From Arenicola marina (lineage: Eukaryota; Annelida; Polychaeta; Arenicolidae): 64,000 bases of DNA. Shown here one piece after another: positions 8,339-64,000 of the stretch. The notes under the pieces were generated by a model, which saw only the letters and a program-made list of their open reading frames with translations, searched no databases and was not told the DNA's origin. The stretch's first letter is position 1. Each line of letters opens with the position of its first letter. The stretch covers positions 35,064,035 through 35,128,034 of the forward strand of contig OZ025256.1 of NCBI GenBank assembly GCA_964019135.1. The letters are read 5' to 3'. A program made the translations under genes and the position numbers.

Positions 8339-8867
8339 TGCTTTTAATAGTCTGAACACACTATAGACATCGATCTTGTTTGAACATTAATACTCATCAA
8401 TGTTTTACTCAACTTTAAGGTAGCACACACCAGTCACACACCAGTCTTACCTGCATCATAACGTCTCCATTCCATAAGACCAGGGTTGCGTTGCGTATGG
8501 CCGTCGACCGCCGCATACAATTGTACACTTTTTTTTCAGAAGAATTGTCGTCCTGAGTTTAATATTATCATGCTGGACTGCTCTCGCTCGCGGCGAATTA
8601 TACCACACTTCCGTTTCAAAACTGTACGCGTCCTTGTCCAATCATATGGCGTGCGCCCGCGGTCGATGGCCATATGCCATATGGTGATGAAAACGCTAAG
8701 ATTGTGACACCACACCGCCCCCCACCCCCCCATCCCCTTATACCTCCACTGCGGTGAAGAAGCTGACGCAAGGAAGCCATACATATGCCATACCACATAT
8801 ATCTAAGAGACGTGACCTGTTAATTTCACTTGGCATTGGTAAAGGTACCCCCCCCCCGCCCCCCCAG

Positions 8868-10000
8868 GCTATCGGGTGAACTTTGCTGACCATATTCAGC
8901 AAGTACAGAATATGCTGCCCTCTCACCCATTTATCCAACAAGTTTTGACGACGAAAGACAAGGTCCCATGCATAATATTGTACACCAATGAACAGATCCA
9001 GGACCTTCAGCGATTCTGCTGTGCAGGTCGCACAGTGTTGGGAACGGATAAAACCTACAACCTCGGCGAGGTGTTTGTCACGACAACGGTCTTTAAACAT
9101 CTAGCTGTGCATCGCACAGACACAAAGGATCACCCGATATTCCTCCGACCGATGTTCATCCATGGCAACTCTACATTTCATACGTACTTCGGCTTCTTTT
9201 CCCATCTTGCTGGACTTCTGTCACATTCATCGACCAGCAAACTGACAATCGGCAGTGACGACGAGAAAGCGTTGCGGACTGCCATTAAGCAGGCTTTTCC
9301 ACATGCCAAGACCATCCTGTGTACGCGCCACCTAAAGAAAAATGTTGCTGACTATCTTCAGCACAAGGTCGGCGCCAGTCAGCGTGACAGAAGAGACATT
9401 GTCGCAAGCATCTTCGGGTCAGGTGGCCTACTGGCGGCCGATGACACACTCTCCTTCGAGATTATGGAAGAGGAGGTGACAGCCATGTGCCAGGATAGAG
9501 TGCCAAAATGTGGTCCCTACTTGGCAAGCAGAATCATTCCACTCTTGAAGGAGCAGGTCGCCAACACTCGTCTGAGCGAGTGTGCTTATCGTACCTGGAC
9601 TAATAACAACGCAGAATCTGCAAACAATCAACTTAAGATCGCCGTTGACTGGAAGCCGCGCAGCCTAACAGACTTGGTCGAGCGCCTGTATTCTGTGGTT
9701 GCCGCCACGTACAAGGATCTTCGTCGAGCCATGGCTGATCGGGGCCTCTATGCCTTGGCTCCTGGTTATGAGGAGTTTAAGCACACGCCACAGCAGTGGT
9801 GCACTCTTAGTGAAGAACATAAGACACGAATCTTCTCGAAATTCATGAAGAAGGTCACAAAGAAACCGAACGAGGTGCTATCCACTGATGGCCGTCTCAC
9901 ATGCACTGTGGCGCCATTGGCCGGAAAAAAATTAAACCAACGGAAACGAGCTGTAAACGACAGGACGACAACGAACAAACGAGAAAAGCGTCAGTTGTAA
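8868..10000 (+). CDS. MULE transposase, main exon (5' part missing)
   Basis: The frame is open from 8843 and ends at TAA 9998-10000. No ATG begins it, and a C-tract followed by CAG at 8865-8867 looks like a 3' splice site, so an upstream exon in 8340-8860 is likely but not identified. Counting from the GTG codon at 8876, the catalytic DDE triad would be Asp58 in LGTDKT, Asp128 in IGSDDE and Glu247 in NNNAESANNQLK. The C-x2-H motif typical of MULE transposases is CTRH (149-152) between the second D and the E. The C-terminus is basic (KKLNQRKR, KREKR), as in a nuclear protein. It would catalyse cut-and-paste transposition of the element whose TIRs flank it. The usual N-terminal zinc-binding domain is not visible. 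Confidence 0.8.
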
Positions 10001-13690: not shown

Positions 13691-13945
13691 GGCCGACCGA
13701 TAATAGCTCAGTAGGGGTATAGAGCGCTCGCATTGAGCGCTCCGGCCACCTGGGAGCCTAACGGCACGTGGATCGGTGGTTCGCGCCCCGATGTGGCCAT
13801 GTCTTGTGTGGTCGCAGGATAAAGATCCAATGTCCTTCTTCGCAAAGAGTAGGGGGTTACCCCGGGGTCATGGCTCCGCTCTTCAGTTCCTTCTCCGAAT
13901 GACGCGATATGACCAGAATTGGTTAAAGGATCCTGAATATACAAC
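13691..13945 (+). mobile_element. tRNA-headed SINE, copy A1
   Basis: The head has an A-box-like TAGCTCAGTAGGGG and a B-box-like GGTTCGCGCC at 13778-13787. The body shares CCGAACGGCACGTGGATCG-like and TGGTCGCAGGATAAAGATCC sequence with the copy at 52402-52600. The 3' part ends in the ATCCTGAATATACAACC motif that also recurs near 52852. It lies directly before the KLHDC9-like gene. Confidence 0.7.
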
Positions 13946-13987
13946 CTATTTGTGTCTTTTTGCAGCCGACCACGGCAGTGGCCAGTC

Positions 13988-14995
13988 ATGGCGCGGGCAG
14001 GTGCTCAGCGCGCACCTGTCACGTGGCAGCTGATGACGACGGATGGTCCATGCCTGGCCCACCATGTGGCTTGTGTAATCCTCGACAAGATGTACGTTCA
14101 CGGTGGGATAAACAAGACTGGGAGTGCAACGCCAAACAGAGAACTCTTCGTCCTGGACTTGAAGAAAAGCGATAGATCGTGGCGCAACCTAGGAACCGTG
14201 GGTGCGCCCGCGTTAAGCCACCACGCATGCGCTGTAGTTGGCGATCGCTACATGTTGGTCATCGGTGGTTGGGATGGAATGGCGAGAACCAGTGACGTTA
14301 CAGCCTACGACACGGTAGACGACAAGTGGATGAGGATGGAGACGTCTGGGTTCGCCACTGGTGGGGGGTTGAGCTCACACACGGCGACCCCGCTGGAAGA
14401 CTGCTCCATCCTCGTTCTCGGGAGGGAGGGCAGTCTGCGTGTGCAGAAAAGGTACGGCAACGCATATATACTCCGCGGGGATGTGACGAACGGGGTGTTT
14501 AAATACACCGAACACGCGATGTCGCTGGGGTCGAGATCCGGCCACACCACGTGCCCTCTAAGTTCACGGCTGTACATCATTGGGGGTAGGGCTGACGATC
14601 TGGTTGAGGTACACCGCAACCATCCACAGCATACACAGCAGTGTGCCCTGCTATCCGAACTGACTTCTGCGGTCCGTGATATGCCGAGGCTGAAGAAGCT
14701 GCCAAGCGGACGGAAACAGCACGTGACAGCCAGCGGTCACGGGGTAATCCTTATGCACGGTGGAGAGACATTTGATGGTCCCAGTAGGGGCCCGGTCAGC
14801 GAGATCTTCCTCTTCTTGACACAGCCGCATTTGCAATACTTTAAAATAAACATTGAGAGCGACGTGGCCAGGGCCGGTCACGTGTGCTGTGTGACGTCGT
14901 CTGACGTTATTATTCATGGGGGCATTGGGCCAGGCGGAGTCATACATCGAGAAACGTATAAACTTATGGTTAATTGTGAATGTGAACACAAGTAA
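13988..14995 (+). CDS. KLHDC9: Kelch domain-containing protein 9-like (KLHDC9), uninterrupted
   Basis: This is a 335-residue kelch beta-propeller protein. Glycine pairs of successive kelch blades are at residues 39-40 (VHGG), 93-94 (VIGGWDG), 199-200 (YIIGG), 258-259 (MHGGETF) and 311-312 (IHGG). The best family signature is GLSSHT (127-132), GREG (145-148) and KRYGNAY (154-160), then SRSGH (182-186), which match KLHDC9 in order and spacing; human KLHDC9 is of similar length. Its molecular role is poorly known. I chose ATG 13988 because the upstream codons of the frame include a likely 3' splice site, TTTTTGCAG at 13956-13964, so only a 5'UTR intron is likely. The coding region has no introns, unlike its neighbours. 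AATAAA at 15223-15228 could be its poly(A) signal. A retrocopy or intron loss would explain the structure. Confidence 0.8.
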   Translation: MARAGAQRAPVTWQLMTTDGPCLAHHVACVILDKMYVHGGINKTGSATPNRELFVLDLKKSDRSWRNLGTVGAPALSHHACAVVGDRYMLVIGGWDGMARTSDVTAYDTVDDKWMRMETSGFATGGGLSSHTATPLEDCSILVLGREGSLRVQKRYGNAYILRGDVTNGVFKYTEHAMSLGSRSGHTTCPLSSRLYIIGGRADDLVEVHRNHPQHTQQCALLSELTSAVRDMPRLKKLPSGRKQHVTASGHGVILMHGGETFDGPSRGPVSEIFLFLTQPHLQYFKINIESDVARAGHVCCVTSSDVIIHGGIGPGGVIHRETYKLMVNCECEHK

Positions 14996-43464: not shown

Positions 43465-46400
43465 GGCCCTTCAGATATGTCTAACCCACCTCGCGCCCCT
43501 CAGTCTGTGAAACCAACCTCCGCGCCCCTCAGTCTGTAAAACCAACTTCCGCGCCCCTCAGTATGTAAAACCAACCTCCGCGCCCCTCAGTCTGTGAAAC
43601 CAACTTCCGCGCCCCTCAGTATGTAAAACCAACCTCCGCGCCCCTCAGTCTGTGAAACCAACCTCCGCGCCCCTCATTCTGTGAAACCAACCTCCGCGCC
43701 CCTCAGTCTATAAAACCAACCTTCGTGCCCCTCAGTCTGTAAAACCAACCTCCGCGCCCCTCACTCTGTGAAACCAACCTCCGCGCCTCTCAGTCTGTAA
43801 AACCAACCTCCGCGCCCCTCAGTATGTAAAACCAACCTCCGCGCCCCTCAGTCTGTGAAACCAACCTCCGCGCCCCTCACTCTGTGAAACCAACCTCCGC
43901 GCCTCTCAGTCTGTAAAACCAACCTCCGCGCCCCTCAGTATGTAAAACCAACCTCCGCGCCCCTCAGTCTGTGAAACCAACCTCCGCGCCCCTCAGTCTG
44001 TGAAACCAACCTCCGCGCCCCTCAGTCTGTGAAACCAACCTCCGCGCCCCTCAGTCTATGAAACCAACCTCCGCGCCCCTCAGTCTGTAAAACCAACCTC
44101 CGCGCCCCTCACTCTGTAAAAACAACCTCCGCACCCCTCAGTTTGTGAAACCAACATCCGCGCCCCTCAGTCTGTGAAACCAACTTCCGCGCCCCTCAGT
44201 ATGTAAAACCAACCTCCGCGCCCCTCAGTCTGTGAAACCAACCTCCGCGCCCCTCACTCTGTGAAACCAACCTCCGCGCCCCTCAGTCTGTGAAACCAAC
44301 CTCCGCGCCCCTCAGTCTGTAAAACCAACCTCCGCGCCCCTCACTCTGTAAAAACAACCTCCGCGCCTCTCAGTTTGAAACCAACCTCCGCGCCCCTCAG
44401 TCTGTAAAAACAACCTCCGCGCCCCTCACTCTGTAAAAACAACCTCCGCGCCCCTCAGTTTGTGAAACCAACATCCGCGCCCCTCAGTCTGTGAAAACAA
44501 CCTCCGCGCCCCTCAGTATGTAAAACCAACCTCCGCGCCCCTCACTCTGTGAAACCAACCTCCGCGCCCCTCAGTCTGTAAAACCAACCTCCGCGCCCCT
44601 CAGTCTGTGAAACCAACCTCCGCGCCCCTCAGTCTGTAAAACCAACCTCCGCGCCCCTCACTCTGTAAAAACAACCTCCGCGCCTCTCAGTTTGAAACCA
44701 ACCTCCGCGCCCCTCAGTCTGTAAAAACAACCTCCGCGCCCCTCACTCTGTAAAAACAACCTCCGCGCCCCTCAGTTTGTGAAACCAACATCCGCGCCCC
44801 TCAGTCTGTGAAAACAACCTCCGCGCCCCTCAGTATGTAAAACCAACCTCCGCGCCCCTCACTCTGTGAAACCAACCTCCGCGCCCCTCACTCTGTGAAA
44901 CCAACCTCCGCGCCCCTCACTCTGTAAAACCAACCTCCGCGCCCCTTACTCTGTAAAAACAACCTCCGCGCCCCTCACTCTGTGAAACCAACCTCCGCGC
45001 CCCTCACTCTTTAAAACCAACCTCCGCGCCTCTCAGTCTGTAAAACCAACCTCCGCGCCCCTCAGTTTGTGAAACCAACATCCGCGGCCCTCAGTCTGTG
45101 AAACCAACCTCCGCGCCCCTCAGTCTATAAAACCAACCTTCGTGCCCCTCAGTCTGTAAAACCAACCTCCGCGCCCCTCACTCTGTGAAACCAACCTCCG
45201 CGCCTCTCAGTCTGTAAAACCAACCTCCGCGCCCCTCAGTATGTAAAACCAACCTCCGCGCCCCTCAGTCTGTGAAACCAACCTCCGCGCCCCTCACTCT
45301 GTGAAACCAACCTCCGCGCCTCTCAGTCTGTAAAACCAACCTCCGCGCCCCTCAGTATGTAAAACCAACCTCCGCGCCCCTCAGTCTGTGAAACCAACCT
45401 CCGCGCCCCTCAGTCTGTGAAACCAACCTCCGCGCCCCTCAGTCTGTGAAATCAACCTCCGCGCCCCTCAGTCTATGAAACCAACCTCCGCGCCCCTCAG
45501 TCTGTAAAACCAACCTCCGCGCCCCTCACTCTGTAAAAACAACCTCCGCGCCTCTCAGTTTGAAACCAGCCTCCGCGCCCCTCAGTCTGTAAAAACAACC
45601 TCCGCGCCCCTCACTCTGTAAAAACAACCTCCGCGCCCCTCAGTTTGTGAAACCAACATCCGCGCCCCTCAGTCTGTGAAAACAACCTCCGCGCCCCTCA
45701 GTCTGTGAAACCAACCTCCGCGCCCCTCAGTCTGTAAAACCAACTTCCGCGCCCCTCAGTATGTAAAACCAACCTCCGCGCTCCTCAGTCTGTGAAACCA
45801 ACCTCCGCGCCCCTCAGTCTGTGAAACCAACCTCCGCGCCCCTCAGTCTGTGAAACCAACCTCCGCGCCCCTCAGTCTGTGAAACCAACCTCCGCGCCCC
45901 TCAGTCTATGAAACCAACCTCCGCGCCCCTCAGTCTGTAAAACCAACCTCCGCGCCCCTCACTCTGTAAAAACAACCTCCGCACCCCTCAGTTTGTGAAA
46001 CCAACATCCGCGCCCCTCAGTCTGTGAAACCAACTTCCGCGCCCCTCAGTATGTAAAACCAACCTCCGCGCCCCTCACTCTGTGAAACCAACCTCCGCGC
46101 CCCTCACTCTGTGAAACCAACCTTCGCGCCCCTCAGTCTGTGAAACCAACCTCCGCGCCCCTCAGTCTGTAAAAACAACCTCCGCGCCCCTCACTCTGTA
46201 AAAACAACTTCCGCACCCCTCAGTTTGTGAAACCAACATCCGCGCCCCTCAGTCTGTAAAACCAACCTCCGCGCCCCTCAGTCTGTGAAACCAACCTCCG
46301 CGCCCCTCAGTCTGTGAAACCAACCTCCGCGCCCCTCAGTCTGTGAAACCAACCTCCGCGCCCCTCACTCTGTGAAACCAACCTCCGCGCCCCTCAGTCT

Positions 46401-49230
46401 GTGAAACCAACCTCCGCGCCCCTCAGTCTGTGAAACCAACCTCCGCGCCCCTCACTCTGTGAAACCAACCTCCGCGCCCCTCACTCTGTGAAACCAACCT
46501 CCGCGCCCCTCAGTCTGTGAAACCAACCTCCGCGCCCCTCACTCTGTGAAACCAACCTCCGCGCCCCTCACTCTGTGAAACCAACCTCCGCGCCCCTCAG
46601 TCTGTGAAACCAACCTCCGCGCCCCTCAGTCTGTAAAAACAACCTCCGCGCCCCTCACTCTGTAAAAACAACTTCCGCGCCCCTCAGTCTGTGAAACCAA
46701 CCTCCGCGCCCCTCAGTCTGTGAAACCAACCTCCGCGCCCCTCACTCTGTGAAACCAACCTCCGCGCCCCTCACTCTGTAAAACCAACCTCCGCGCCCCT
46801 CAGTCTGTGAAACCAACCTCCGCGCCCCTCAGTATGTAAAACCAACCTCCGCGCCCCTCACTCTGTGAAACCAACCTCCGCGCCCCTCACTTTGTGAAAC
46901 CAACCTCCGCGCCCCTCACTCTGTAAAACCAACCTCCGCGCCCCTTACTCTGTAAAAACAACCTCCGCGCCCCTCACTCTGTGAAACCAACCTCCGCGCC
47001 CCTCACTCTTTAAAACCAACCTCCGCGCCTCTCAGTCTGTAAAACCAACCTCCGCGCCCCTCAGTTTGTGAAACCAACATCCGCGGCCCTCAGTCTGTGA
47101 AACCAACCTCCGCGCCCCTCAGTCTATAAAACCAACCTTCGTGCCCCTCAGTCTGTAAAACCAACCTCCGCGCCCCTCACTCTGTGAAACCAACCTCCGC
47201 GCCTCTCAGTCTGTAAAACCAACCTCCGCGCCCCTCAGTATGTAAAACCAACCTCCGCGCCCCTCAGTCTGTGAAACCAACCTCCGCGCCCCTCAGTCTG
47301 TGAAACCAACCTCCGCGCCCCTCAGTCTGTGAAATCAACCTCCGCGCCCCTCAGTCTATGAAACCAACCTCCGCGCCCCTCAGTCTGTAAAACCAACCTC
47401 CGCGCCCCTCACTCTGTAAAAACAACCTCCGCGCCTCTCAGTTTGAAACCAACCTCCGCGCCCCTCAGTCTGTAAAAACAACCTCCGCGCCCCTCACTCT
47501 GTAAAAACAACCTCCGCGCCCCTCAGTTTGTGAAACCAACATCCGCGCCCCTCAGTCTGTGAAAACAACCTCCGCGCCCCTCAGTCTGTGAAACCAACCT
47601 CCGCGCCCCTCAGTATGTAAAACCAACCTCCGCGCCCCTCACTCTGTGAAACCAACCTCCGCGCCCCTCACTCTGTGAAACCAACCTCCGCGCCCCTCAG
47701 TTTGAAACCAACCTCTGCGCCCCTCAGTCTGTGAAACCAACCTCCGCGCCCCTCACTCTGTAAAACCAACCTTCGCGCCCCTCGCTCTGTAAAAACAACC
47801 TCCGCGCCCCGTCAGTTTGTGAAAGCAACCTCCGCGCCCTTCGGTCTGTGAAACCCACCTCCGCGCCCCTCAGTCTGTGAAACCCACCTCCGCGCCCCTC
47901 AGTCTGTAAAACCAACCTCCGCGCCCCTCACTCTGTGAAACCAACCTCCGTGCCCCTCAGTTTGAAACCAACCTCCGCGCCCCTCAGTCTGTGAAACCAA
48001 CCTCCGCGCCCCTCAGTCTGTCAAACCAACCTCCTTGCCCCTCAGTTTGAAACCAGCCTCCGCGCCCCTCAGTCTGTGAAACCAACCTTCGCGCCCCTCG
48101 CTCTGTAAAAACAACCTCCGCGCCCCTCAGTTTGTGAAACGAACCTCCGCGCCCTTCGGTCTGTGAAACCCACCTCCGCGCCCCTCAGTCTGTGAAACCA
48201 ACCTCCGCGCCCCTCAGTCTGTTAAACTAACCTCCGCGCCCCTCAGTCTGTGAAACCGACCTCCGCGCCCCTCAGTCTGTAAAACCGACCTCCGCGCCCC
48301 TCAGTCTGTGAAACCAACATCCGCGCCCCTCAGTCTGTAAAAACAACCTCCGCACCCCTCAGTTTGTGAAACCAACATCCGCGCCCCTCAGTCTGTGAAA
48401 CCAACTTCCGCGCCCCTCAGTATGTAAAACCAACCTCCGCGCCCCTCACTCTGTGAAACCAACCTCCGCGCCCCTCAGTCTGTGAAACCAACCTCCGCGC
48501 CCCTCAGTATGTAAAACCAACCTCCGCGCCCCTCACTCTGTGAAACCAACCTCCGCGCCCCTCACTCTGTGAAACCAACCTCCGCGCCCCTCAGTCTGTG
48601 AAACCAACCTCCTTGCCCCTCAGTTTGAAACCAGCCTCCGCGCCCCTCAGTCTGTGAAACCAACCTTCGCGCCCCTCGCTCTGTAAAAACAACCTCCGCG
48701 CCCCTCAGTTTGTGAAACCAACCTCCGCGCCCTTCGGTCTGTGAAACCAACCTCCGCGGCCCTCAGTCTGTGAAACCGACCTCCGCGCCCCTCAGTCTGT
48801 AAAACCGACCTCCGCGCCCCTCAGTCTGTGAAACCAACCTCCGCGCCCCTCAGTCTGTGAAACCAACCTCCGCGCCCCTCAGTATGTAAAACCAACCTCC
48901 GCGCCCTTCGGTCTGTGAAACCAACCTCCGCGTCCCTCAGTCTGTGTAACCCACCTCCGCGCCCCTCAGTCTGTGAAACCCACCTCCGCGCCCCTCAGTC
49001 TGTGAAACCAACCTCCGCGCCCCTCAGTTTGTGAAACCGACCTCCGCGCCCCTCAGTCTGTGAAACCAACCTCCGCGCCCCTCAGTCTGTGAAACCGACC
49101 TCCGCGCCCCTCAGTCTGTGAAACCAACCTCCGCGCCCCTCAGTCTGTGAAACCAACCTCTGCGCCCCACAGTCTGTGAAACCAACCTCTGCGCCCCTCA
49201 GTCTGTGAAACTAACCTCCGCGCCGCGCCC
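43465..49230. repeat. 5.8 kb minisatellite, 29-bp unit, about 198 copies
   Basis: The unit is close to CTCCGCGCCCCTCAGTCTGT plus GAAACCAAC. Variants mix throughout: CAGTATGTAAAACC, CACTCTGTAAAAAC, and a shortened CAGTTTGAAACC unit. Larger blocks have been copied: a marked pair, CATCCGCGGCCCTCAG then CAGTCTATAAAACCAACCTT, recurs near 45060-45140 and 47060-47140, about 2.0 kb apart, and the second motif also near 43704. CpG-rich GCGCC lies in nearly every unit. There is no coding function. Confidence 0.95.
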
Positions 49231-56600: not shown

Positions 56601-59600
56601 TTTATTGCACTCCAGCCTCCTGCACTCGCATTGGCCAATATGTAATGAACGTATTTGCAGGGGGAGATACGGCATCAGAATAAGTAGCGCTGATACAGCT
56701 GTAGTTCCTTCATCGTGGTCGCATTTATTCAGGTTGGGGGTATCAAATATCAGAACCGATTTTATGGCAGCACCCATGGATTGGTACGGGTTGGACTGAC
56801 TGACCAATGACGAATCCCACACTGCCCACCAACTCTCTGGATCTGTGAGGTAACCATGTAAAATTAGACTGAGCGGGTAGTTCGTATTTTAGTGCTCGTC
56901 GCACTGGCGCGTGTTTCACCCATTGCCACACCGCTGCAGATCTAAATCGTGTTGGGATAACCTTCTTCAATCCCAGTCTCACAGTGGCATTTCTCAATGC
57001 CCAATTAATCTTCTAGAACTGGGTGAAGTCAGCTGGGGGTCACACGAAAGCTGTTGCTAATGGTGTGAATAACGTCGGCAGCTAGACTCCGTGGCTACAC
57101 TAGAGTCTTAGTGTGGCTGGACTACCTGTTTAAGAGCCCTACTCCGTGGCGTTAGGTCTCCAGCAAAGGTTCCAGCCTGTGTTTCCCAGGGGTGTTTTAA
57201 AAAGGAATAGGCCCATTTGGAAATTCCAAATTCATGGATGCACACAGGGCGACACATTATGATAAAAGCTACAGTCGATTCCTGACTGGCGTCTATAGAA
57301 CTTTGCATGTACACCGTTGTGCCCCTAGACAGCGGGATTGCCTGGGGGCACTTGCGCCAAAGGATATACCAACGTGTGGTTGATTATCACATATTTTTGT
57401 CCTCAACATTTGTTTTGAAGCAGCCAGGCAGGTCAAAGGTGTTTTGGTGGCAAGAATATAGGATAGATAATGGACTAAACCGGTACATAAGTAAGGGAAA
57501 ATTAGATGAGTGTTAATTAAAGATAATTAAATCCAAGATGTGATGTTGAAAAGGTGCAACATTGCCAAACAAATGAGCGCTTCCCCCACCCACCCCCCAA
57601 CTGTGGGAACTTGGCATTTTGTAATTATGCATAGAGGGTTGCATCTACGATCTAGAGGGGAGTCAGCAGCTACTTTCCATTTAGATTATTCTTGAAGCTA
57701 TCAAATTTGTAAACTATAAAAAATATTCTTAGTTGTATCTGTGTTTGCAAGACATCTTATTCAGGCATTAATTTGGATACTATGATTATTTTGTATTTAA
57801 GGTATTTCCCGTGACAAGTGGCATAAGCGCAGGAAGACTGGTGGTCGCCAGAGTCCGCTTCGAAAGAAGAGGAAGTTTGAGTTGGGACGTCCAGCTGCTA
57901 ACACCAAGCTTGCTCCTAAGAGAATCCACACTGTCAGGACTCGTGGTGGCAATAAGAAGTACAGGGCACTGCGTCTTGACACTGGAAACTTCTCATGGGG
58001 CTCTGAAGGTAGGTTTTACATTCTGGTGTTATTTGAAGTTAAAGTATAAATAAGTAAATTATATACTGTAAACTGCCTTTTTGAAGCTGTGGCTACTATT
58101 AGGAAGTTGCATGCTGTGCAGCTTTAAATATGGCATTTTGCCGATTTGAAGTGAGCATGGCAAGGAGGGGTGGTAAAATACAGAAATTGGCGGTGAATAC
58201 TAATTGATTGCATCATGACATCATCAGTGTAACATGATACGGCTGCCATCCTCACACGAACTGTAATAGGTTACTCGGCCTAGACAGAAACTTGGTACTG
58301 GGTAGGCGCAACAGTGATTCATAAATATGCAGTACTTGCCAGGAGAGCCAGTCACTGTTGTAACACTTGATAAGAGGTGTGATGGCAGAGGGATAGGCGA
58401 CTGCTTGTATAGACAATTGACACCAGAGTAATTGGCTTGGTTCGCCGGATTGGGATTATGATAGGCAGTGACACAGGAAAGGGCACTGGATATCAAGAAG
58501 GGGAGGGGTAGCAGGGACGAGAGGGGGGGGGGGGGCGAAGTCCAGGTGCGGCTTATAATATGTAGATTTCCGGAAATGGTTCCAGGGCATGCCGAACCGG
58601 TTTGGAGGCCAATTTTGGGGTGCATCTTCAAAAAGGCAGTTTACAGTACCTAATATCATGTATAATAAATATGTTGAATTTTCTCACTGTCATAAAAGTT
58701 ACTTATCGAATCAGAATTAAAATTAAAGAATGATTTCGTTTTCTGATGTCTATTTCATGTACATAGTTCAGCCGCCTGTGAGGGTGATTGGCTAGAATCT
58801 GACACTGTTTAAATGGCAACTTTTGCTGATTAAGCTGCATAGTCAGCTAAACTGTATTCATGACATCCATCAGTTGCTGCCATGGGCACCATGTTTTGAT
58901 CGAGGGTCAGGTGCACCCAAAAAAATAATAAAAAAATGGGGAAAGAGGGTGCATTTTCTGATTCCACAATATTCCTGCTGGAATTCTGAAATTCTTGATA
59001 ATCTGTTGACAATTATTATCGATCGTTATTGTTTGTGCAATTCTGAACAGTTTGTACAACTAGAAGACCTTTGTCAGCTTTTGCCAACTGATACTGAAGG
59101 TGACTGTATTTCCCTCCTTCGGAAAGGGATGAAGAGTTAGTGGTTTACACACTCATTCACGTTTCAAAACCACTGGAATTTAGTTTAGGAATGTGCATAG
59201 GCTGCGTGTCAGGCCACACACAGCCTAGGTGAACAGCTTTGTCAGCCATGTCTCTCCTGTCAATGAGAATGTCTGTTTATTCGAGACAAAGCTCCTATGA
59301 TCTTTTTCAAAAGAGACATTGGTCCCCTCTACCCATGATCCTTCCCATTGACACAAGATGGCCTTCATGGGCTTCAGTCCTTCTCAAATCAACCATTGGA
59401 GAATAAAATGGAGGGACAGGATTTAAGAGCAATATTTGTCACATTCATAAAGCATACATAGCCAAAAGTTTAGTATTTAGTCCTGCATTTGTATATTTAT
59501 CATAGAAATGTTGCTCTATTGGTAGATATCTTCTAATCTCTAACCATCTATTTTCTGCATCTTGTTACAGCTACCACCAGAAAGACCCGTGTCATTGATG

Positions 59601-62600
59601 TTGTCTACAATGCCAGCAACAATGAACTGGTGAGGACAAAGACCTTGGTGAAGAATGCCATTGTCCAGATCGATGCCACCCCCTTCCGTCAGTGGTATGA
59701 AGCCCATTACGCTCTGCCTTTGGGCCGCAAGAAGGGTGCCAAGCTGGTAAGTAGTATGCATAGTGAATGGGGATCAGCTGTTCTGTTCAGGCCTGCATTT
59801 TATGTATTTATGACTATGTGTTGAGTGTTGATGATGCTAACTCTTTACCATCTTTCGTCTGAAAAGTATTGAAGACAAAATAGATACTGAGACACTCTAA
59901 TTTAAACATGAACTGGTGTGAAGGAAAATCATTTTGATTCCTGATCCTGGTGCTTTTGGACACACGTAGATTGCGAAGGTAATCAATTGCATTATACCTT
60001 TAAATCCGGATAATCATGTTGATACACATTTAAAACTCCCAAAATAGGTGCCATTTTCTTTTCTAAATGTACCGGAGTGCAATAAATGGACCATCCTGCA
60101 GTGTAATTTGCTTTCACAAAGTATGATGTCGCATGAAAACGAATTCACTCCTTGATTCGGGGCCTGCCTGACCCCTGGCACCACGTAGCTAGTACTATTT
60201 ATATGTAACTGTTTCTCGGCATATCGATCATTTTTTCTGTTAGATATCTCCGTATAGATGTAATGTACATAACAGCAGATAATATAAAATGAAATTATCA
60301 GGACCTTTGGGCAATTTTTTTTTGGCATTTTTTCCTGGAATTTCGTGAGTGACAATGTCGTGTTTCTACAGGGGGTTTGGGTGGGACGGTTCTTGCTGGC
60401 TGTGAAGGGGTGTTTGAAAACTTAGTGCCGGCCAATATACGTGAAATAAGGTATCTTGACTGAGGTAAATGGCGTCCTTGTGATGAGACTAGTGACGGGC
60501 GGACTGAATCACTGTTGAAGGTCACTGCTCTGATGGAAACAACAAAGCAATTATATATATCTGGTTAGCGTGGTTGCAGGATTTGTTTGGTTTAAATTGA
60601 AGGGATATTATTGCATTCTTCAACATCATTATTACAACAAACAAACACTAAGCTGAGTGTTGATGATGTTAACTCTTTACCATCTTTCGTCTGAATACAT
60701 TCTTGAAGACAAACCATGTACTGAAACACTCATCTGAGGTTCCAAGTAACAACAGTATATATTCTCTTGTTTTACTGGCTCGCTGATGTTTTGCCTATGC
60801 TTCAGTCGACTGAAAAAAAGGCTTAAGTATACTTTTCCAAAAAGCATACTGCAGAGATGGGTCACCAAAGGCCAATCTTTAATTGGTGGAATCATGATCC
60901 CTGTGAATCAAAATCCTGGTAACTAAACTCAACTTGTAGATGAATTCGCATGATTGATGGCCTTCGGCTCAACATTTTTTTTGTTAGTTCTGAGCTCCTA
61001 TTATAAATTTCTAAAAGCAGATATTGTAGATCCTTTGAAAATTACAGATGGCTGTTCCTTGGGACATGGCGCCACTTTATCTTCTAGCTTTTGCTATTGA
61101 GGCAATGAGTCTGCAGGTTAAATATCTTGCAATAAAGTCTTCATGAGAACTAGGAGTGACTGCTTTTGTATCTAATTATGGAGCTTGACAATCGGTAGGT
61201 TCTGTCTGAGCAATTGGATAAGTTGAGAAAAAGACGATGGAGTGTTCATGATGTTAAGCAATACCATCTTTCGTCTGAAAATATTTTTGAAGACAAAAAT
61301 GCACTGAAACGCTCTACAATTTTAGTCTTCATTCTTCTATATAAAAAAACCCTGATATTACATGTTGTCTACTTTGTGAATTTCAAAGGCAAGTTACAAA
61401 TAAATTGCACTGTTGAAGGTTTATTTTAGTGATCAATTTATGTTACATAGAACACTAAACCTGCTTAAGCACATATTATTAATCTGTATATCATGGGAAA
61501 AGTTTCCTGCAACAGCCATGTTATTGTTCCAGGAAGGTTTGTCCCTATTTAGCCTTTGCTTTGGCTTTGCACAGATCTCCGCAAGCTGCCCGATATTCTA
61601 ATTAGGAAACTGATGATTGCTAATCTACTATAGGCGTGAAGTTTTGCTGGGTGGTTTAGTTTGAGAACTGAAGGCATTCTTAACCTTTAATTTCAATATT
61701 GCTATGGGGTGTAATTGTTGACTTTCAAAGGATGAAACTGACGGGTGGACTAAAGTGTAGTGTTGAAAGTCACTGCTTTGATGATAAACCTTTTTTTTAC
61801 CTCGTTAACCTATGCGGAATAGCCATGAAGTACAAGACACAAACCACCAGATGGGGGCTGGGGGTGTTCTACAGATTTTTGCAGGCTAGAACTGACCAGA
61901 TGTGTTAGTGATAACAGTACAATAATAACCTATTTGGAACTTACGGATTTCCTTTCACAGCTTGTAATGATATATCCTAGATTGATAAGATCTGAAAGCG
62001 ATTTCCAACATGGGACCATCCGGTTAAGGCGTTTCGGTGATGAGACTAGTGACGGGCGGACTGAACCATCTTGTTGAAAGTCACTTCTCTGATGGAAGCA
62101 GATGCTAGCACATATATATATGTACCTTAGCCTTTAATCAGTCGTTTTAATAGTTTTAAATTGCACCTTAAGGCGTTTCGGTGATGAGACTAGTGACGGG
62201 CGGACTGAACCATCTTGTTGAAAGTCACTTCTCTGATGGAAGCAGATGCTAGCACATATATATATGTACTTTAGCCTTTAATCAGTCGTTTTAATAGTTG
62301 TAAATTACAGGTAGAATCGTTACTGTAAGCAGTTTAGTGCAACAGGGCTAATCTCCTAAACCTGAAATCACCGACAACACTATCGGTGATACACGTGATG
62401 CTCTGATCTATGCTGCTGCATAAGGCAATAAATCAGACTAAACTGCGTTTTTGCATGTATGTATGTAGATGAACTTATTCTCTCTTCCTCCCACAGACTG
62501 AGGCTGAAGAGGAGGCCATCAACATGTATGTATGCAGATGAACTTATTCTCTCTTCCTCCCACAGACTGAGGCTAAAGAGGAGGCCATCAACATGTATGT

Positions 62601-63523
62601 ATGTAGATGAACTTATTCTCTCTTCCTCCCACAGACTGAGGCTGAAGAGGAGGCCATCAACATGTATGTATGTAGAGGAACTTATTCTCTCTTCCTCCCA
62701 CAGACTGAGGCTAAAGAGGAGGCCATCAACATGTATGTATGTAGAGGAACTTATTCTCTCTTCCTCCCACAGACTGAGGCTGAAGAGGAGGCCATCAACA
62801 TGTATGTATGTAGAGGAACTTATTCTCTCTTCCTCCCACAGACTGAGGCTAAAGAGGAGGCCATCAACATGTATGTATGTAGAGGAACTTATTCTCTCTT
62901 CCTCCCACAGACTGAGGCTGAAGAGGAGGCCATCAACATGTATGTATGTAGAGGAACTTATTCTCTCTTCCTCCCACAGACTGAGGCTGAAGAGGAGGCC
63001 ATCAACATGTATGTATGTAGAGGAACTTATTCTCTCTTCCTCCCACAGACTGAGGCTAAAGAGGAGGCCATCAACATGTATGTATGTAGAGGAACTTATT
63101 CTCTCTTCCTCCCACAGACTGAGGCTGAAGAGGAGGCCATCAACATGTATGTATGTAGAGGAACTTATTCTCTCTTCCTCCCACAGACTGAGGCTGAAGA
63201 GGAGGCCATCAACATGTATGTATGTAGAGGAACTTATTCTCTCTTCCTCCCACAGACTGAGGCTAAAGAGGAGGCCATCAACATGTATGTATGTAGAGGA
63301 ACTTATTCTCTCTTCCTCCCACAGACTGAGGCTGAAGAGGAGGCCATCAACATGTATGTATGTAGAGGAACTTATTCTCTCTTCCTCCCACAGACTGAGG
63401 CTGAAGAGGAGGCCATCAACAAGAAGCGCTCTAAGAAGACGCAGAAGAAGTACGATGAGCGCAGGAAGAAGGCCAAGGTTGAAAACGCTCTCGAGGACCA
63501 GTTCATGTCCGGCCGCCTCATGG
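53640..63523 (+). CDS. RPS8: Small-subunit ribosomal protein eS8, exons 1-4 (3' end outside window)
   Basis: Exons: 53640-53643 (ATGG only, after a 5'UTR from about 53611), 57802-58008, 59571-59746, 63394-63523. Phases join to [20 protein letters not shown] and on. Exon 2 contains [12 protein letters not shown] and [19 protein letters not shown]. Exon 3 has [20 protein letters not shown] and ends [13 protein letters not shown]. Exon 4 reads [20 protein letters not shown] and ends GRLM plus one base of the next codon. These follow eS8 closely (human: 208 aa); 172 residues are present, and about 36 should lie past the right edge. It binds 18S rRNA in the 40S body. Intron 1 (4.2 kb) holds a TIR element, intron 2 a small TIR element, and intron 3 seven snoRNA-like units. 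Exon 4 is preceded by a 14-copy array of its own acceptor. Confidence 0.95.
53968..54240 (+). repeat. Left TIR of the intron 1 element
   Basis: Inverted copy of 55816-56086. Distinct inner landmarks are CAACTCGTCGCCAATTTTGT and GCCGCTTGCCGCCATGTTGA. Confidence 0.9.
55417..55640 (+). mobile_element. tRNA-like SINE inside the TIR element
   Basis: A head reading CCATAGCTCAGTTGATAGCG resembles a tRNA A box. The B-box region, GGTTTGACAATGC, is degraded. The end CTTCGCAAAGAGTACAGGGT is shared with SINE copy A1 at 13833, indicating a common body. Confidence 0.55.
55816..56086 (-). repeat. Right TIR of the intron 1 element
   Basis: Inverted copy of 53968-54240, lacking three bases (CAG) in the TTACAGTC tract near the tip. 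Confidence 0.9.
57130..57255 (-). repeat. Partial copy of the SNX17-intron long-inverted-repeat element
   Basis: It shares GGTTCCAGCCTG, AGGAATAGG, CCATTTGGAAATTC and GATGCACAC with the arms at 26219-26345 and 27945-28033. A further similar piece, TATCTGTGTTTGCAAGA, is at 57736. Only one arm is visible. Confidence 0.55.
58066..58646. mobile_element. TIR element with TA duplication in RPS8 intron 2
   Basis: Starts CTGTAAACTGCCTTTTTGAA after TA (58064-58065) and ends with its inverse before TA (58647-58648); total 581 bp. The minus strand encodes only fragments (NYSGVNC), similar to the piece near 22510. TA duplications suit the mariner/pogo superfamily. A G-tract lies at 58525-58538. Confidence 0.8.
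58649..59570 (+). other. Rest of RPS8 intron 2
   Basis: I searched for box C/D pairs here and found none that form a terminal stem. Nothing else recognised. Confidence 0.4.
59823..59897 (+). ncRNA. Box C/D snoRNA, SNORD32/51-like, copy 1
   Basis: Terminal stem GAGTGT/ACACTC, box C TGATGA at 59829-59834, D' CTGA at 59859-59862, C'-like TGAAGA, and box D CTGA just before the stem. The guide before D' is TTACCATCTTTCGT, which pairs with the 28S segment CGAAAGATGGT. The same guide sits in vertebrate SNORD32A/SNORD51 (human 28S A1511, recalled numbering). It lies in RPS8 intron 3. The second guide is not conserved between the three copies. Confidence 0.85.
60474..60540 (+). ncRNA. Box C/D snoRNA, SNORD43-like, copy 1
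   Basis: Box C TGATGA at 60481-60486, D' CTGA at 60504-60507, a C'-like TGTTGAAG and box D CTGA at 60530-60533. The guide CTAGTGACGGGCGGA before D' pairs with the 18S segment CCGCCCGUCGCUA, with one G-U pair. By the D+5 rule the target is the C of ACCGC, recalled as human 18S C1703, the SNORD43 site. The terminal stem is weak. Confidence 0.8.
60655..60731 (+). ncRNA. Box C/D snoRNA, SNORD32/51-like, copy 2
   Basis: Stem GAGTGT/ACACTC, box C at 60661-60666, D' at 60691-60694, box D at 60721-60724. It has the same CTCTTTACCATCTTTCGT guide as copy 1, 832 bases upstream. The guide before D differs. Confidence 0.85.
61240..61314 (+). ncRNA. Box C/D snoRNA, SNORD32/51-like, copy 3
   Basis: Stem GAGTGT/ACGCTC, D' at 61275-61278, box D at 61304-61307, guide ATACCATCTTTCGT intact. 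Box C is ATGATGT, one base from consensus, so this copy may be less efficient. Confidence 0.75.
61722..61790 (+). pseudogene. Decayed SNORD43-like copy
   Basis: It aligns with the other SNORD43-like units (CTGACGGGTGGACT, GTTGAAAGTCACTGCT) but box C reads GGATGAAA, D' reads CTAA and D reads TTGA. All three boxes are damaged. Confidence 0.7.
62030..62099 (+). ncRNA. Box C/D snoRNA, SNORD43-like, copy 3
   Basis: Box C TGATGA at 62038-62043, D' at 62061-62064, D at 62089-62092, guide CTAGTGACGGGCGGA. It is the first half of a 144-bp tandem duplication. Confidence 0.8.
62174..62243 (+). ncRNA. Box C/D snoRNA, SNORD43-like, copy 4
   Basis: Nearly identical to copy 3, 144 bases downstream: box C at 62182-62187, D' at 62204-62207, D at 62233-62236. 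Confidence 0.8.
62455..63420 (+). repeat. 69-bp x 14 array duplicating RPS8 3' splice site and exon start
   Basis: Each unit has ATGTATGTATGTAG, a pyrimidine tract, CCTCCCACAG, then ACTGAGGCTGAAGAGG and GGCCATCAAC, the first 27 bases of RPS8 exon 4. Acceptors recur every 69 bases from 62496 to 63393. Units alternate GCTGAA and GCTAAA in the order E K E K E K E E K E E K E E, so the last eight follow a three-unit (207-bp) pattern. Units 1-3 read GATGAAC in place of GAGGAAC; this puts TGA stops in frame at 62539-62541 and 62608-62610. From acceptor 3 onwards the frame is open into the true exon. Confidence 0.95.
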
Positions 63524-64000
63524 GTACGATATGTTATAGTCACGCTGCCGTCTATTAGTCGTTCTCAGGGTTCCCACAGGTCAGGCCAAACTGGCAAAAT
63601 GATAGACAAAAATTCCCTGGAGTGAAAAGTCATCGAATTTCATTTTCGAGAAGAAATCGGGGAATTTCAGAGGCCTAGATCACATTTTGGTAACTGTTAA
63701 ATCCCAGTTATTACTAATATCTAGAAGGGGGGGGTATGAATTCCCAGTCTTATATGGTTATTAATGTCATTATATAATTACTTCTTGATGATTCACAAGA
63801 AATAAACTTATGCCAGAAGTTCTGAACCTGGAGATCGTTTCACTAAGACTTACTTTTACATGCTAATTTAACGACAGATAATAAGTTTTCCGAGCAACAG
63901 AAGTAAGCGTTATACGGCGATAATTGGGGTCCAGCCGTCTTCGTCCTATTATGTTCCAACAAGATTATTTAATAACCTGTATGCCATAGATTTATGATAA
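63524..64000 (+). other. Start of RPS8 intron 4, to window edge
   Basis: The donor GTACGA follows 63523. No exon matching the remaining eS8 C-terminus is visible before the edge, and no snoRNA was found here. A G-tract lies at 63726-63733. Confidence 0.5.

Follow-up and report, generated by a model that had tools for sequence, protein, structure and literature searches.

Tandem repeats that extend across exon-intron boundaries have been described in amphioxus under the name of "mirages" (PMC3087553). Mirages occur in Adh3, TnC and the globin genes BflGb6 and BflGb9, a similar case with imperfect repeats being PGBD5, and their units measure 10-72 bp in Adh3 and 150-160 bp in the globins (PMC3087553, PMC3902484). 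In BflGb6 the repeat joins the end of an intron to the start of exon 2, one haplotype having 6 units and another 3; the Adh3 data and the globin RT-PCR suggested normal splicing despite the mirages (PMC3087553). A study of earthworm metallothionein reports exon duplications absent from transcripts, plus intronic minisatellites (PMC12783039). Among the papers listed by full-text searches of open-access PMC on mirages and on minisatellites at splice junctions, annelids included, we recognised no description of a splice-spanning array in an annelid. Here we describe such an array in the ribosomal protein gene eS8 of Arenicola marina. It belongs to the known, mirage-type class; what is new is its occurrence in this lineage and in a gene for a ribosomal protein, the number of copies, and the fact that such arrays recur in the genome.

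The window, i.e. the whole stretch of 64,000 nucleotides that was analysed (C9:35064035-35128034 within an 867-Mb assembly), contains no N bases and carries the eS8 gene at its right end. The mitochondrial contig of the assembly encodes a cytochrome oxidase I with 91% identity to that of Pilargis wolfi, followed among the listed matches by other annelids, including many Phyllodocida; this marks the animal as a polychaete close to Pilargidae. The array and the eS8 features given below in window coordinates all lie on the forward strand. Pfam S8e matches and translation locate coding exon 2 at 57802-58008 (GISRDKW...WGSE, phase 1 end, donor AAG/GTAGGT) and coding exon 3 at 59571-59746 (...GAKL, phase 0 end, donor CTG/GTAAGT). 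With the start inferred for exon 2, exon 1 would supply one base of the Gly-2 codon. Intron 3 (59747-63393) measures 3647 nt up to the last acceptor of the array and 2750 nt up to the first. Exon 4 (63394-63523) is 130 nt long from the last acceptor and ends at the donor TGG/GTACGA; exon 5 lies outside the window, at L004:3462 (equivalent to window position 67362), and the introns flanking exon 4 are 3.6 kb and 3.8 kb long. Judged from the sequence, the identity of the gene as eS8 is firm, because exon 4 matches solved eS8 chains (E-value about 3 × 10-11) and the joined exons 2-5 translate into a single uninterrupted frame (residues 2-208). The three matches listed for the S8e profile in the genome are eS8 exon 2, eS8 exon 3 and one locus on the reverse strand of contig C8, which we take to be NSA2 from the way it reads. 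The gene looks single-copy in this genome, and all eS8 mRNA should therefore have to pass the array.

Intron 3 also harbors box C/D snoRNA-like copies (59823-62240), all of them Rfam matches below the gathering score: three resemble snoMe28S-Am982 (59823, 60655 and 61243) and three SNORD43 (60475, 62033 and 62177), with a diverged SNORD43-like relative at 61739-61789. A 144-bp tandem duplication (97%) at 62024-62311, with one snoRNA-like copy per repeat, is a second tandem event within this intron. Intron 4 (within L004:387-3254) contains two SNORD46-like and six snoR77Y-like box C/D copies, again below the Rfam gathering scores, and a dispersed repeat from about window position 63561 onward. 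Human RPS8 also houses SNORD46. Elsewhere, the window holds a MULE transposase fragment and a kelch-repeat frame (8843-9997 and 13937-14992).

The array occupies positions 62455-63420, each 69-bp unit being composed of 42 nt of the intron end and 27 nt of exon 4. TRF reports 62454-63421 with a period of 69, 14.0 copies, 98% matches and 0% indels. An earlier note on this DNA had described fourteen tandem 69-bp copies ahead of a ribosomal-protein exon, with which both TRF and the sequence agree. As in mirages, the unit spans an exon-intron boundary and the splice signal is copied, here in 14 of 14 units; as in BflGb6, an intron 3' end is joined to the 5' part of an exon. The sites CCCACAG/ACTGAGGCT are kept in all fourteen units at an exact spacing of 69 nt. 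Their first exonic bases fall at 62497+69k (62497, 62566 ... 63394); the series 62496+69k proposed before has the correct spacing but designates the final base of the intron, one position earlier.

The units differ at three positions only (12, 16 and 52). Position 12 is C in unit 2 and T in all others. Position 16 is T in units 1-3, creating an in-frame TGA, and G in units 4-14. Position 52 is G or A, resulting in Glu or Lys in the order EKEKEKEEKEEKEE along the array. Units 1-3 share the T at position 16 whereas the unit at the 3' edge is of the core type; the direction of this T/G change can be read only against an outgroup. Every unit contains one CTTAT branch-point-like motif (14/14), a pyrimidine tract and the CAG, with no AG between. 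Since each copy possesses these signals of its own, the acceptors along the array should hardly differ in intrinsic strength. Each unit also starts with a GTATGT-type donor-like run (for example 62940-62949). Under a human donor matrix, the one unit scored (CAT/GTATGT at 62940) reaches 6.1, versus 3.9 for the authentic exon 4 donor, so that a unit is formally a possible pseudo-exon of 29 nt. When the 867-Mb genome was searched at the DNA level (40 of 822 candidates scored), the self-match was the only one of the 41 matches listed to cover the array and exon 4, and no second haplotype copy of the array was among them; the other matches listed begin at query position 1262 (window 63561) or later.

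Translation from each acceptor gives a simple picture. Acceptors 1 and 2, with first exonic bases at 62497 and 62566, run into TGA after 14 residues. Acceptors 3-14 are open through the end of exon 4; use of acceptor n from 3 to 13 (62635-63325, at 62635+69k) would add (14-n) × 23 in-frame residues, from 253 down to 23. In-frame stops are absent from 11 of the 14 units. The earlier note had predicted each of these points (twelve acceptors in frame, the first two leading into TGA, units 4-14 free of stops, and the same increments of 23 residues), and the translations bear it out.

The significance attached there to frame preservation is another matter, and the analysis does not support it. Shuffling the intron part of the unit with an unchanged exon part leaves frame 0 open in 51% of trials; multiplied by 1/3 for a length divisible by three, this amounts to about 17%. 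In a stop-free unit, three of the six frames are open. Unit length is divisible by three in two of the seven clear splice-spanning arrays identified in this genome (the eS8 array included, a degenerate array left out), about the chance expectation, and the decoy sites scored in the CCT gene arrays described below all shift the frame or meet stops. The open frame of the eS8 array is attributable to chance and is no evidence of use or function, because openness has a chance of about 0.17 and three of six frames are open anyway. A search of the array translation against 5.77 billion predicted proteins (best 7997 candidates scored) returned 17 proteins; their best alignments extend over 14-15% of the query, which is what exon 4 by itself accounts for. 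The species seems absent from this set, where the best identity among 120 listed eS8 matches is 88%. A coding function for the inserted 23-mer was also considered and rejected, no protein containing the 23-mer having been seen in that search and openness being near chance.

The order of the Glu and Lys units bears on how the array grew. Expansion by three-unit steps, as suggested before, receives modest support from the last nine units, which read KEE three times, but not from the first six, which read EK three times. A period-3 run of at least 10 units arises in 44 of the 2002 arrangements of five K among fourteen units. We infer that the array began as a tandem duplication of a 69-bp segment across the junction of intron 3 with exon 4 and went on to expand as a minisatellite, growing to 14 near-identical copies in two-unit and, later, three-unit steps. 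Such arrays would grow by ordinary minisatellite turnover. With a unit straddling the junction, the process would deposit decoy splice sites on the intron side and keep the intact exon at the array edge.

Similar arrays exist elsewhere in the same genome. We sampled two essential multi-exon gene families, CCT/cpn60 and the proteasome. The CCT/cpn60 sample comprises 49 exon matches, 30 with 1.5-kb flanks (L045-L074), 14 with 500-nt flanks and five inside those stretches. TRF analysis of their 98 edges, some of which are profile-match ends and not splice sites, so that the rate is rough, places 7 edges in junction-copying arrays, at the CCT7, CCT6 and CCT3 loci (subunits named by search for L049, L058 and L067, and by position in the same cluster for the others). 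One of these seven (L048) is touched by a degenerate array only, and a two-copy 44-bp repeat at the left edge of L049 was not counted. The CCT7 (eta) locus (L064, L049, L063, L081; C17:26.06-26.07 Mb) has four splice-spanning arrays: two on the acceptor side (68 bp × 7 and 34 bp × 5) and two on the donor side (82 bp × 6.6 and 66 bp × 8.1, the latter running off the stretch). The CCT6 (zeta) locus has a donor array of 55 bp × 10.9. The CCT3 (gamma) locus has a donor array of 29 bp × 40, with the strict donor pattern in 34 copies, and, on the donor side, a degenerate one of 41 bp × 38. Arrays at L050 and L055 end about 14-20 nt short of the edge and span nothing. Among the proteasome matches, 21 of 25 were examined with 250-nt flanks (42 edges), and none of these edges carries a splice-spanning array (0/42); two nearby arrays (L090, L097) start within the intron, about 15 and 20 nt from the edge. 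Over both families, arrays take in 7 of 140 exon edges (95% interval 2-10%), and these seven come from three of the eleven CCT-family loci. Recurrence is thus shown at these three loci plus eS8 only. In the six clear CCT arrays 66 decoys were scored, and every one of them shifts the frame or hits a stop; the sampled CCT exons themselves are open. The CCT decoys should be little used, since they would break essential genes whose sampled exons are intact as read, the intactness of the whole genes being assumed.

These arrays are neither clearly targeted to splice junctions nor clearly excluded from them. For the 30 CCT loci with long flanks, we counted windows with at least two extra tandem copies at match edges, in flanking DNA 200-1250 nt away (mostly intron) and at exon centres. 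Arrays were found in 5/60 match edges, 67/480 flanking windows and 0/30 exon centres (Fisher p = 0.31 for edge against flank, p = 0.16 for edge against exon centre), where edge and flank windows are non-independent, as neighbouring loci of one gene overlap. TRF coverage is 5/60 at match edges and 4-12/60 at flanking points 180-1380 nt away. The idea that minisatellites are targeted to splice sites is thus unsupported, edges being no richer than flanks.

The sampled DNA is rich in minisatellites: 21 regions with at least 3 copies were counted in 171 kb (window included), and a single tandem gene array accounts for five. This density sample consists of kinase loci (PF00069), mostly intronless-looking or on contaminant contigs, after exclusion of ten contaminant loci and of L001-L003, L005, L006 and L014 (window duplicates, the NSA2-like locus or mitochondrial). 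Two long minisatellites may be mentioned: one of 29 bp in the window (43483-49224, about 198 copies) with a strong C-over-G strand skew, and one of 57 bp with at least 55 copies that runs off L004:6856-10000. The kinase loci show other features of the assembly. In nine contigs (C443, C465, C504, C330, C652, C609, C497, C684, C232) the kinase frames are broken by TAG or TAA and never by TGA among the rows listed; these look like ciliate-code DNA from a contaminant or symbiont. About 70 of the 122 kinase matches listed (120 of 1191 candidates scored) lie on C3 (about 14-57 Mb), mostly as single open frames of about 280-320 aa, which looks like a large lineage-specific expansion. Five matches at C5:5402476-5437356, with the same E-value of 2.5 × 10-39 and about 8.5 kb apart, look like a fresh tandem gene array.

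Which acceptor of the eS8 array is then used? The alternatives had been correctly posed in the earlier note: either the last acceptor only, or a ladder of isoforms and targets of nonsense-mediated decay (NMD). The 66 frame-breaking CCT decoys favour the first. Acceptor 14 (63394) is the sole one that opens a short complete exon (130 nt) up to a real donor; acceptor 1 would give an exon of 1027 nt. Lying between two long introns, exon 4 would be defined across itself. A study of human splicing indicates that exons with long flanking introns are spliced preferentially at the sites nearest across the exon (PMC9225289). Under our preferred reading, to which we assign a probability of roughly three in four, the array is a near-neutral minisatellite whose decoys lose to 63394, whose open frame is due to chance, and which is one case of a growth that is common across this genome and takes little account of splice sites. 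The acceptor at 63394 would take nearly all eS8 splicing and the 13 upstream acceptors would be mostly silent. Leaky use would at most produce NMD substrates from acceptors 1-2 and eS8 with 23-253 extra residues from acceptors 3-13. The human data describe the preference for the upstream one of two equal 3' splice sites as significantly reduced in exons with long introns, not as reversed (PMC9225289). Upstream acceptor use in eS8 could therefore be substantial, and by this analogy leakage has to be reckoned with. The array might also give rise to pseudo-exons, given the weak exon 4 donor relative to the GTATGT of the unit under the human matrix. We also considered whether RNA structure hides the upstream acceptors and rejected it, since pieces of the array are no more structured than their shuffled versions (z = +0.79, +1.01, -1.27 and +1.47).

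If leakage were appreciable, acceptors 3-13 would yield a series of eS8 proteins extended in steps of 23 residues, which might differ between individuals with array length. The twelve in-frame acceptors, their near-equal signals and the residual upstream preference in the human data on long-intron exons (PMC9225289) are what such a ladder would need. Against these stand the one-in-six chance of an open frame, the scored CCT decoys, not one of which is translatable through, and the protein search, whose 17 proteins align with the share of exon 4 alone in a set where the species seems absent. We consider the ladder unlikely.

More doubtful still is a device for tuning eS8 output, in which acceptors 1-2, or pseudo-exons running from a unit acceptor to a unit GTATGT donor, divert pre-mRNA to NMD. 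The TGA met from acceptors 1-2 does lie far upstream of the exon 4-5 junction, and use of the unit donor, which outscores the authentic one, would create a frame-shifting 29-nt exon. However, eleven of the fourteen units have no in-frame stop, the intron between adjacent units would be just 40 nt long, array-piece folding is not above that of shuffles, and we see no sign of conservation or selection. The least credible proposal is an assembly artefact, with just one unit or a few in the real genome, for although tandem arrays are assembly-prone and the matches listed (40 of 822 candidates scored) offer no second haplotype copy for comparison, the variants are ordered along the array (the T/G boundary after unit 3 and the Glu/Lys pattern), the contig is 43 Mb long, the window is free of N, and comparable arrays whose units have diverged occur elsewhere in the genome.

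The recurrence of splice-spanning arrays in one annelid genome is a wider point than the eS8 array alone. Extrapolating from the 7 of 140 edges, all in CCT loci, we tentatively propose, at slightly less than even odds, that minisatellites occupy a few per cent of splice sites (thousands of loci) in this annelid lineage and that their decoy donors or acceptors are rejected by the spliceosome via exon definition, the eS8 train being the case in which the decoys are translatable. Were this so, leakage at eS8 would appear as a ladder of eS8 proteins. The counts at edges and flanks suggest that minisatellite growth strikes splice junctions about as freely as introns. A splice-junction array is a natural competition assay: near-identical sites, differing mainly in their distance to the remainder of the exon, compete in genes that need correct splicing. 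Acceptor counts at eS8 and donor counts at CCT3, CCT6 and CCT7 could test the proximity rule of exon definition, with array length as the natural variable.

The eS8 array shares features with several known systems. In coding VNTRs such as MUC1, the minisatellite unit is an open multiple of three. The eS8 unit is likewise open and divisible by three, but unlike those it is partly intron and has an acceptor in every unit. As with tandem acceptors of the NAGNAG type, neighbouring 3' splice sites compete and their use would change the protein stepwise. In contrast to these, the eS8 acceptors are 69 nt apart and each unit has its own branch-point-like motif and pyrimidine tract; the choice would therefore be made at first-step recognition and not at AG selection, a distinction drawn in the human study (PMC9225289). 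The mirages are the closest relatives, described only from amphioxus in the papers found, and the present array extends them to an annelid. It differs from them in lying outside the cephalochordates and in a ribosomal-protein gene, and in having 14 units in place of the 3 and 6 of BflGb6. Its unit is moreover in frame and varies at three positions only, most copies being free of in-frame stops.
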